From Helicobacter jaachi (lineage in GTDB: Bacteria > Campylobacterota > Campylobacteria > Campylobacterales > Helicobacteraceae), in contig NZ_JRPR02000001.1 of the NCBI RefSeq assembly GCF_000763135.2, forward strand, positions 62,001 to 126,000: DNA of 64,000 nt. Direction: 5' to 3'. The position numbers and the translations under genes were made by a program. This document shows positions 16,013-51,797 of the stretch, piece after piece. The notes below the pieces were generated by a model. It was not told the origin of the DNA and did not search any database. It saw nothing but the letters and a program-made list of their open reading frames with translations. Positions within the stretch are counted from its first letter, which is position 1; every line of letters begins with the position of its first letter.

Positions 16013-16038
16013 TTCTTTAACTCCTCAACTTAAATTTA

Positions 16039-16068
16039 TAGAATCCAACCTCAAAAAACAAGTTGATA
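16039..16068. repeat. 30-base intergenic repeat, copy 1
   Basis: The segment after tRNA-Phe shares an identical 21-base core (16048-16068) with 50701-50721. The agreement extends left to 30 bases with two differences. The left end is an AGAATC half-site. Function is unknown. Confidence 0.8.
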
Positions 16069-16185
16069 GATTAGCTAAAGCTTAAGCTCAATAGCGTGGA
16101 AATTATAGAATCTAAATCACCTCACAAATTTACCTCGCGTTAGATTTATGCACTATGCTTTCATACTTTATCCTAAGGAGCGTAT

Positions 16186-24543: not shown

Positions 24544-24565
24544 TTATAGAATCTAGATTCTATAA
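24544..24565. repeat. 22-base perfect palindrome of the AGAATCTAGATTCT family
   Basis: It contains TATAGAATCTAGATTCTATA plus one matching T/A on each side. It lies between the divergent metallophosphoesterase and antiporter genes. Confidence 0.95.
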
Positions 24566-28625: not shown

Positions 28626-31600
28626 GTTTATGTGAAATTTTGTCTTTATCCAGTTGCTAAGGGTGGCGAGGTGTGTGTAGAAAATGGGTATGAAAAATAT
28701 GGCGATGAATGTGGCAGCTAGCATTCCGCCGATTACTCCTGTGGCTATTGCATGCCTGCTCAAAGCGCCTGCGCCACTTGAAAAAGCCAAAGGCAATACG
28801 CCTAAAGTGAATGCTAATGAAGTCATTACAATGGGGCGAAAGCGCATTTTTACGGCTCGCACACTTGATTCTATAATGATTTTTCGCATAGTTTTAGAAT
28901 CTAGATTTTGCAAACTAGTAGAATCCCTAGAGCATTCTTGCAACATTGGTAAGTTATTTTTTTCTTTAAGGGGGAGGGGCTTAAATTGCGAAGTCGCTCC
29001 CTCCCCCTTAAAAATCCCCCACCCCGACGACGCTTCCAAAGTTTGCGCTTCGCGCCCATTGGTATTTAATGGCGACAAGGGCGTGCCTTGTCGCATGATA
29101 GAATCCACAATTTTGTGCCTTTCTTGCTCGGCGAATTCCACGATTAAAATGGCGTTTTTGGCGGATAAGGCGATTAAGACTAAAAGTCCCACCTGAAAAA
29201 ACACATCATTCTCAAGTCCGCTAATATAAGTAAATGCAATCGCCCCAAACACGCCAAAAGGCACAGCAGACAGCACCGCTAAAGGCAGCAGCCACTTCTC
29301 ATATTGCGCCACTAAAATCAAAAACACAAATAAAAGCCCAAAGGCAAACGCCACGCCGCCACTGCTAGAGCTTGCGCGCTCTTGATAGCTCGCCCCCGCA
29401 AATGCGATGTCATAGCCGCTAGGCAGCACTTCGCTTGCGACCTCTTCTATCGCTCTCATCGCATCGCTGCTTGAATAGCCAAAATTTAGCTGCCCTATCA
29501 CTTGTGCGGCTGGGAATTGATTGAATCTATTTACGATTTCTGCGCCAATCTTTCGCTCCACGCTTACAAGCGAACTCAAAGGCACAAGCGCGCCACTGCT
29601 TGATTTCACAAAAATATCGCTTAGATTTTGCGGATTTGAGCGATAGTTAGAATCTGCTTGTGCGATAACTCTAAATGTGCGATTAAACGCCTCAAAATTA
29701 TTCACATAAAAGCTACCAAACGCCACTTGCATGGTATTAAACACATCGTTTATCTCCACATTCATAGCCGCTGCCTTTTCGCGATTTACGCGCGCTTCAT
29801 ATTGTGGCGTATCAGCGGCAAAACTCGTTACGACACTGCGCAATTCTGGGCGATTTCGCGCTTTTTCAATTAGCAAATCAGTATATTTTTTTAAATCATT
29901 TAGACTTCCGCCCTCTTTGCTTTGTATAAAAAAATTCACACCGCTAGAATCTAGCCCTATTATCGTTGGCGCTTGAGTTAGCACAAAATGCGCCTTTTCA
30001 TTGCCACTTAATTCATCACTAAGCAAAGCAATCGCCTGCCTATCGCTAATATCGCGCTCATGCCAAGGCACAAGCTTATGAAATCCAATGCCCGCATTTG
30101 ACTTAAAGCCCTGCGCTAGAAAACTATAGCCTGAAATAGTCTGCATTGCCGCAATATAGGGCTTTTGACTAATCACATTAATTAGCTCTTTTTGCACTTC
30201 AATTGTGCGATTTAGACTAGCGCCCTCTGGTAAAATCGTATGCACGAATACAAAGCCCATGTCTTCACTAGGCACAAGGCTTTTAGGCGTCCTTTGGAAT
30301 AAGTCATAAGTCAAATACAGCATCGCGCCCATAAGCACTAGCATAATGCTACCACGTTTTATGCTAGTTCGCACTTTGCGAGTGAAAGAATGCGTGATTT
30401 TATCAAATAGGGCGTTAAATGGATTTAAAATATACTTTTGGGGGAGAGATTTATGCAAACTATGTGGCTTTAAAAACATCGCACAAAGTGCAGGTGTAAG
30501 GCTCAAAGCCACAAGCCCGCTAATTACCACAGAAATGACAATGGTAATGGCAAACTGCCGATAAATCTCACCGCTAAATCCGCTTATGAAACTAACAGGC
30601 AAAAATACCGCCGCAATCACTAGCACGATAGCCACGACTGCACCGCTAATCTCTTTCATAGATTCTATCGTGGCTTCTTTTGCGTCACAGCCTTTTTCGT
30701 GCATTATCCGCTCGACATTTTCTATCACTATAATTGCGTCATCTACGACTATTCCAATGGCTAGAATAAGCCCAAATAAAGTTAGTAAATTGATAGAAAA
30801 TCCCAAAAAATATAGCCCTATAAAAGTGCCTATAAGGCTTACTGGTATGGCAATCACTGGTATTATCATAGCGCGAAAACTGCCTAAAAACAAATAAATT
30901 ACTAAAACTACCAAAATTATCGCCTCAAAAAATGTCTTTTTCACCTCGCTAATAGAGGCTAAAATAAACTCTGTTGGCGCAAAAGGCTTAGCATATTGCA
31001 GTCCATCTGGGAATTTTTTGCTTAAAGATTCTATCACGCTATCGACCGCATTGCTTACTTCTAGCATATTTGCACCCGGCTGCAAAGATACGCGTATGGG
31101 GACAGAGCGCATATCATCATAATAATTATCCGTGACATAATCTTGCGCGCCCAAACTCACTCGCGCAATGTCTTTTAGCCGCAGAGTAGAGCCATCATCA
31201 TTTGCCTTTATAATTATGTTTTCAAACTCGCTTGGAGTGCTTAGTAAGCCCTTTGTGGTAATGGTGTAAGTGAATTCGCTGTGGTTTATAGGCTCAGCAC
31301 CAAACTTACCCGGGGCGAACTGGGCGTTTTGCGACCTTATCTTTTCTATAACTTCTAAGGGCGATAAATTATGATTTTGCAAACTCGCAGGATTTAGCCA
31401 TATCCGCATTGCGTATTTTTCAAGACTCCACAACTGCACATCGCCAATGCCACTAATGCGATTTAGCTCATCAATCACATTTAAAAGCAAGTAATTTGCG
31501 ATAAATAGCTGGTTATGCGCGGGATTTGTAGAGTAAAATTGATAGAATCCGGCGACTGCAGAGCTTTGCTTTCGCACATCAATGCCAAGCCGCTGCACTT

Positions 31601-50590: not shown

Positions 50591-50691
50591 TTTGTTTTGC
50601 TCGCTTTAAAATGCCTAAAAATCATAGCATTAAGCGCTAGCATCTATAGAATCTAGCCTATAAATTTCGCAGCGTGCTAAAACCAAAATTA

Positions 50692-50721
50692 TAGAATCTC
50701 ACCTCAAAAAACAAGTTGATA
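50692..50721. repeat. 30-base intergenic repeat, copy 2
   Basis: It shares a 21-base identical core (50701-50721) with the segment after tRNA-Phe (16048-16068). Confidence 0.8.
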
Positions 50722-50739
50722 AGCTGCATAAGCAGATTA

Positions 50740-50850
50740 TAACTTTATACTTTAGGCGGCGCAGGGCAATTCACTTGCCCGAAGATAAGACCGCGCGGCT
50801 TTTTATAAAAAAGCAACAGCGCGGATTTATAGAATCTAGATTCTATAAAA
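50740..50850. ncRNA. Possible small structured RNA or double terminator between rny and the MarR gene
   Basis: The stretch holds a hairpin GGGCAA/TTGCCC with a 5-base loop (50764-50780), then an extended hairpin with CCGCGC/GCGCGG outer arms (50791-50796, 50819-50824) and GCTTTTT/AAAAAGC inner arms, then a 24-base palindrome (50826-50849). A -10-like TATACT lies at about 50747. The rest of the 267-base gap has no gene. Orientation and expression are unproven. Confidence 0.35.
50826..50849. repeat. 24-base perfect palindrome of the AGAATCTAGATTCT family
   Basis: It contains TATAGAATCTAGATTCTATA with two more matching bases on each side. It is located 8 bases after the MarR gene's stop codon. 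Confidence 0.95.
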
Positions 50851-51374: not shown

Positions 51375-51797
51375 ACTTAGGCATAGTAGGTGGTTGCTTT
51401 TGGGATACAAAAGAGGAAAGTCCGAGCTACAAAGACAGGATTCCATTTAACAAATGGCTAGGGTAACCTAAGGGAAAGTGCAACAGAAAATAACCGCCGC
51501 GTAAAAGTGAGATGTGGTCTAGATTCTATAAATCATAGCGAGCATTTATAGAATCTAGGTGGCACATCTAAGTTAGATTCTGTAGTGTTATAGAATCTAG
51601 CGCGGTAAGGGTGAAAAGGTGGGGTAAGAGCCTACCGATTTTGCAGCAATGCAAAATGCTATGCAAACCCAATCCGTAGCAAGAAGAGTATGGTTAAGGT
51701 CTTAAAGTTAAACTCTTCGCTTGAGGTATGTTGCGAAACATATCCTAGATAAATAGCCACCCACGACAGAACTCGGCTTATCGCTATGCCTAAGTAT
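51375..51797 (+). ncRNA. rnpB: RNase P RNA
   Basis: This is the catalytic RNA that matures tRNA 5' ends. The P1 stem pairs ACTTAGGCATAG (51375-51386) with CTATGCCTAAGT (51784-51795). The conserved cores are GAGGAAAGTCCGAGCTACA, AGGGAAAGTGCAACAGAAA, AGGGTGAAAAGGTGGGGTAA, GCAAACCCAATCCG and ACAGAACTCGGCTTAT. Between them (about 51510-51600, P12 region by position) lie two hairpins made of the dispersed heptamer family. Hairpin 1 pairs 51519-51533 with 51544-51558 (15 bp) inside an AGATGTG/CACATCT stem. Hairpin 2 pairs 51574-51581 with 51592-51599. A T-run follows the 3' end. Confidence 0.97.

Follow-up and report, generated by a model that had tools for sequence, protein, structure and literature searches.

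In the present analysis of a 64-kb window (64,000 nt, the whole stretch of DNA considered here) of the Helicobacter jaachi genome, we find that the RNase P RNA of this species carries two hairpins within its P12 region, both built from AGATTCT, a short word dispersed over the entire genome. We consider that these hairpins represent a tolerant site which was filled by the genome-wide word under an uptake-type pressure, and give this reading a probability of about 0.6. P12 displays, within an essential catalytic RNA, a genome-wide word confined to one changeable part, and the case explains why a word so confined takes on the look of a designed hairpin. The word is more worth following than the P12 hairpins themselves.

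The rnpB gene, which encodes a type A RNase P RNA of 419 nt, is located at 51378..51796 on the plus strand and is the longest of 117 family matches. It covers the Rfam model RF00010 at full length (model positions 1-367) with a score of 262.5 bits against a cut-off of 100. Core blocks align at high posterior probability and the insertion sits within the P12 brackets of the model, so the core is as normal as in other type A RNase P RNAs and P12 is enlarged and branched; the placement which the first-pass annotation had offered as probable (P12) was thereby confirmed. By Rfam alignment and folding, P12 extends over 51493..51606 (+), closed by pairing of ACCGC at 51493-51497 with GCGGU at 51602-51606. 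The segment 51490-51610 folds at -51.1 kcal/mol (z = -8.0), a value equalled by none of 200 shuffled sequences, and both motif stems appear there as parts of a multibranch P12 and are retained in the fold of the whole RNA.

In the P12 junction, the minimum free energy fold predicts a small 3-bp hairpin (51498..51509, +), followed by motif hairpin 1 (51510..51569, +), in which AGATTCT stands at 51521-51527 (+) and 51550-51556 (-). Its inner stem of 15 bp (51519-51533/51544-51558) is 100% complementary around a 10-nt loop and is enclosed by an outer stem of AGATGTG (51510-51516) and CACATCT (51563-51569), exactly as had been described from the first reading of the sequence. Motif hairpin 2 (51572..51601, +) has the word at 51575-51581 (+) and 51592-51598 (-); a stem was indeed recognised here at the outset, but its extent had been put too short, at 51574-51581/51592-51599, while the actual stem comprises 13 bp including G-U pairs (51572-51584/51589-51601). 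The two hairpins jointly hold four AGATTCT/AGAATCT copies in their stems and are thus truly built from the dispersed motif. However, since the reverse complement of AGATTCT is AGAATCT, differing in the central base, a paired arm shows the word a second time, and the four copies, although correctly counted, correspond to two units. None of the 226 inverted pairs no more than 60 nt apart in 464 kb of the genome forms a longer motif-on-motif stem than stem 1, which argues that the P12 hairpins are more than chance. A scan of genome contigs with the stem-1 hairpin gave a single, unrelated match in Candidatus Yanofskybacteria, in a collection that may lack the records of this species itself. No copy of the whole P12 insert was found elsewhere in the genome, where matches span the motif arms only, and the possibility that the insert is a dispersed whole-unit repeat was rejected on this ground.

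STRR repeats in the rnpB gene of heterocyst-forming cyanobacteria were reportedly described by Vioque in 1997 (NAR 25:3471). As in H. jaachi, a genome-wide dispersed repeat resides there within the RNase P RNA gene; judged from the title and citation of that paper, however, STRR are short repeats in tandem, whereas the 7-bp word forms inverted pairs in P12 with loops between the copies. Passages of PMC4748335 and PMC2858038 cite the STRR of cyanobacterial rnpB.

Comparison of 11 species of the genus showed that the expansion is confined to this species, rnpB being 325-342 nt and the P12 segment 25-41 nt in the ten others, against a P12 segment of 120 nt here (~80-95 nt longer). It could be supposed that the hairpins have a function in this RNase P RNA, where their structure might be under selection because it binds a protein or stabilises the molecule, and their high stability and perfect pairing (z = -8) would fit such a role. 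However, they occur in one species only, the P12s of the congeners are short and unrelated, and P12 has no universally conserved nucleotides and is reported to be sometimes dispensable, for instance in cyanobacteria (PMC2858038), which makes a functional role very improbable; the hairpins are presumably neutral for RNase P activity.

The restriction of the word to P12 is seen throughout the family. When P12 was extracted from 89 family rnpB genes, giving 2,616 nt of P12 and 21,500 nt of remaining RNA, all 14 exact AGATTCT/AGAATCT copies were situated within P12 and none in the remainder (P ~3e-14 under an even spread, relatedness being ignored). These copies belong to ten species from four genera, and they bear out the proposal that the motif becomes fixed wherever structure permits. 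The additional statement of the first-pass annotation, that this always happens in the form of a compensated hairpin, is wrong: a P12 stem with motif facing motif is predicted only for this species and G014, and the other eight of the ten word-bearing species have a single exact copy without an exact partner opposite, namely G031, where the motif faces a one-base variant, and seven species with no motif opposite in the predicted fold; most copies in the genome are likewise solitary. P12 is a tolerated site which the word entered repeatedly, and compensated pairing is not the rule. In the comparison of P12 among related species, which the first-pass annotation had suggested as a check, the hairpins are present within the genus in this species only. 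Long P12s also occur without the word (88 nt in G022 and 45 nt in G146), so that elongation of P12 by itself is ordinary. This variation in word-free species is what might favour ordinary P12 length variation with a fortuitous resemblance to the motif, an explanation already contradicted by the 14 of 14 exact copies in the P12s of ten species and by the recurrence of the stem-2 form at 59 strict sites, and therefore scarcely credible. The intergenic region beside rnpB is non-syntenic in the congeners. Within the 20 kb round rnpB in G014 (L106), words of the kind of GAGTCCCC and AATCCTAC recur ~46 times, probably as a CRISPR array, and in several congeners (L098, L100, L102, L093) runs of ~11-12 C lie beside the gene upstream of rnpB and are possible phase-variable tracts.

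AGATTCT/AGAATCT occurs 186 times in the 64-kb window against 8.45 expected, on both strands. Over 464 kb of the genome there are 1325 copies (2.9/kb), with a near-Poisson distribution (variance/mean 1.1-1.3) and a largest gap of ~2.5 kb. Enrichment is limited to the AGAWTCT form (1325 copies versus 10 of AGASTCT in the same 464 kb), and one-base variants stay near background except GGATTCT (20 vs 4.8). The extended consensus is CTAGATTCTATAA, and AGATTCT in its extended form reads CTAGATTCTATA. Coding copies number 150 versus 20.7 under synonymous codon shuffling and fall mostly in a single reading frame, while the density is about twofold higher in intergenic (5.1-6.4/kb) than in coding DNA (2.6/kb), and highest between convergent genes. 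Inverted pairs no more than 30 nt apart (~124 among the 1325 copies) outnumber direct pairs, chiefly between genes, where 31 inverted and 4 direct pairs lie within 30 nt.

In ortholog alignments, gaps were found at 3.6% of motif sites and 4.3% of random 7-mers, and the motif was conserved at 45% of aligned orthologous loci compared with 17% for random 7-mers, both from a small sample of 14 copies. Since aligned motif sites have no excess of gaps, the word arises by base substitution in place, and the notion that it invades finds no support, either in these alignments or in the search for a second copy of the P12 insert. These data bear directly on a small mobile palindromic element, similar to REP or MITE sequences, which would have inserted twice into P12. 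The strict hairpin TAGATTCTRTA-N1..12-TAYAGAATCTA, of which stem 2 of rnpB (51574-51599) is one example, is present 59 times in this genome and 0-3 times in each of ten congeners, and the pattern favours the extended consensus of this very species; together with the frequent single G arm, the sometimes identical loops and the extra ~80-95 nt of the P12 segment, this would suit an element. On the other hand, flanks and loops vary among the copies and nothing matches beyond the motif arms, no insertion of a unit with defined ends was seen (neither a gap excess nor a whole-insert match), copies in genes arise without gaps, and congeners carry single copies in P12. Looser hairpins (95 here, 30 in G001, 15 in G010 and 4 in G002) follow approximately the square of the motif number in most congeners, by arithmetic on the counts. 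The surplus of strict hairpins speaks for the first-pass interpretation and hints at a hairpin-specific process in this genome, which is possible but unneeded; we regard insertion of such an element as rather improbable. The 59 strict hairpins mostly have exactly one G-containing arm, and never two among those listed; an RNA-level reason for this asymmetry was not adopted, as there is no consistent orientation to genes.

The word extends well beyond H. jaachi. In the whole genome, TAGATTCTA was counted 2162 times against 30 for the reversed control, and in G036 8587 times against 118, a 20-kb sample of the latter containing 155 word copies. Relative to the reversed control, TAGATTCTA is strongly raised in genera g1, g3, g5, g6, g11 and g13. 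The excess is moderate or mixed in g4, g9 and g12 and weak in g2, whereas g10 and g7, the latter probably the genus of the gastric Helicobacter species, stay at the control level or close to it. In most 20-kb samples taken from the positive genera, which are most of the Helicobacteraceae genera sampled, no 7-mer is more frequent than AGATTCT. A literature search returned no report linking AGATTCTA or AGAATCT to a Helicobacter repeat, and likewise none on HIP1-type words. We know of no earlier uptake-type sequence in Helicobacteraceae.

A machinery that might use such a word is encoded in the same genome, where the genes for a secretin, GspE and GspF adjoin near ruvC and, judged from the genes, would provide for a transformation pilus and secretin. 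The cluster (L192:6221-13554) contains GspF, GspE, a secretin of the MshL type, RuvC and two unassigned proteins, and resembles a Campylobacter-type competence locus. A search of 79 genomes detected the GspF family in 75 and missed it only in the four g7 genomes, and in sampled genomes it was present in 44/44 non-gastric and 0/4 gastric members of the family. In g2, g10 and g8, however, GspF is present and the motif scarce or missing. The association of GspF with the motif amounts to a single phylogenetic contrast, one clade being without both, and cannot prove a connection. ComB10/TrbI was rejected as a correlate, since its occurrence across genomes is out of step with that of the motif. This genome also has two N6/N4 methyltransferase genes.

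We give even odds to the proposal that the non-gastric Helicobacteraceae have an unreported DNA-uptake sequence with AGATTCT as its core, maintained through a Campylobacter-type competence machine, and that the P12 of rnpB is a readout of this pressure, with the Campylobacter-type machine and the word both missing in the gastric lineage and a methylated GAWTC possibly recognised. As would be expected of an uptake-type sequence, the word is short, hugely over-represented, found on both strands and chromosome-wide, and placed in permissive positions (within rnpB, P12 only). It shares with the DUS of Neisseriaceae and the USS of Pasteurellaceae the many copies on both strands, the permissive sites, the intergenic excess, the inverted pairs and the T4P-type machinery, but differs in being a 7-bp, near-palindromic and very dense word (2.9/kb). 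For DUS, Frye et al. recorded thousands of copies, permissive sites and inverted pairs at terminators and gene ends (PMC3630211). Closer in phylogeny, C. jejuni imports DNA through a T2SS/T4P system, which recognises the motif RAATTY methylated by CtsM, thus in the same phylum, with the same type of machine and a methylated short A/T-rich site, though the word is different and specificity is reported to reside in the methylation of the site (PMC8468864). Against the uptake proposal, AGATTCT differs from classical DUS in its almost palindromic form, and the GANTC within it leaves room for a role linked to methylation.

HIP1 of cyanobacteria is a highly iterated short palindrome found throughout coding DNA. 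AGATTCT resembles it in this respect, whereas HIP1 is an exact even-length palindrome of other sequence and the word studied here has a central A/T, with a motif-rich relative for which no matching 7-mer methylase is reported. By analogy, AGAWTCT may accumulate because the cell makes use of it as a methylated site or through a role in DNA structure, P12 merely tolerating it. The near-palindromic form and the enrichment of A-GAWTC-T only (1325 vs 10 AGASTCT) are consistent with this, and so is the GAWTC core, a subset of GANTC; as H. typhlonius carries methylation at 99.7% of its GANTC sites (PMC4705304), the core would be methylated. However, none of the eight methylated motifs of the H. typhlonius methylome has AGAWTCT 7-mer specificity, yet G010, putatively H. 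typhlonius, is motif-rich, which weakens methylation as the only cause; H. pylori strains methylate GANTC as well (PMC4705304), yet the gastric genus has no enrichment of the word. We therefore consider such a HIP1-like origin unlikely, if less so than a mobile element.

Our preferred reading, a tolerant P12 filled under uptake-type pressure, would operate as follows. In bacterial RNase P RNA the outer portion of P12 varies freely, and the genome of this lineage would be under continuing pressure to gain AGATTCT, so that copies would emerge and persist wherever the sequence is free, which within rnpB means the outer P12. As P12 presumably must remain a helix, a near-self-complementary AGAWTCT in one arm, if kept paired, would yield a copy in the other arm, and this helix constraint acting on a near-palindromic word would produce clean motif-on-motif stems. 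P12 would thus have grown here from ~30 to ~114 nt and branched with two motif stems, in an order of events that we infer, while the RNA core stayed normal. The pressure is most likely of the uptake type, with a Campylobacter-like T2SS/T4P competence machine giving preference to word-bearing DNA, and the imported DNA might then recombine, so that copies would be gained by substitution and maintained. If this is true, the word would be the first uptake-type sequence known to us in Helicobacteraceae, and uptake specificity, its absence from gastric Helicobacter and inter-species barriers to gene exchange would become directly testable.

The window also contains a structured dispersed element of 148 nt, separate from rnpB and bearing TATAGAATCT at both ends (50690..50837, +), with a partial copy at 16037-16113 (+). 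Elements of this kind range from 131 to 169 nt with TATAGAATCT at either end, and where copies stand in tandem, neighbours have the boundary motif in common (L147:2527-2935). A covariance model of the element matched this genome 99 times, against 23 matches for G007 and 0-2 for other congeners; the hairpins are variable but compensated, 7 of 27 predicted pairs having changes on both sides that preserve the pair. An Rfam search yielded no counterpart of the element. The P12 hairpins were also considered as fragments of it, which was rejected as no match of the element model overlaps P12 even when E values as high as 1 are admitted. Back-to-back intergenic palindromes on AGAATCTAGATTCT, in pairs with a spacing of 7, occur at window positions 24548, 26542, 28608, 31991, 50831 and others; 464 kb contain 16 of them, half of which (8) fall in the 64-kb window, and they are possible terminators. 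Finally, an inverted repeat with perfectly matching 14-bp arms, TTTAAGGGGGAGGG/CCCTCCCCCTTAAA, lies at 28965-28978 / 28999-29012 and has no relation to AGATTCT.
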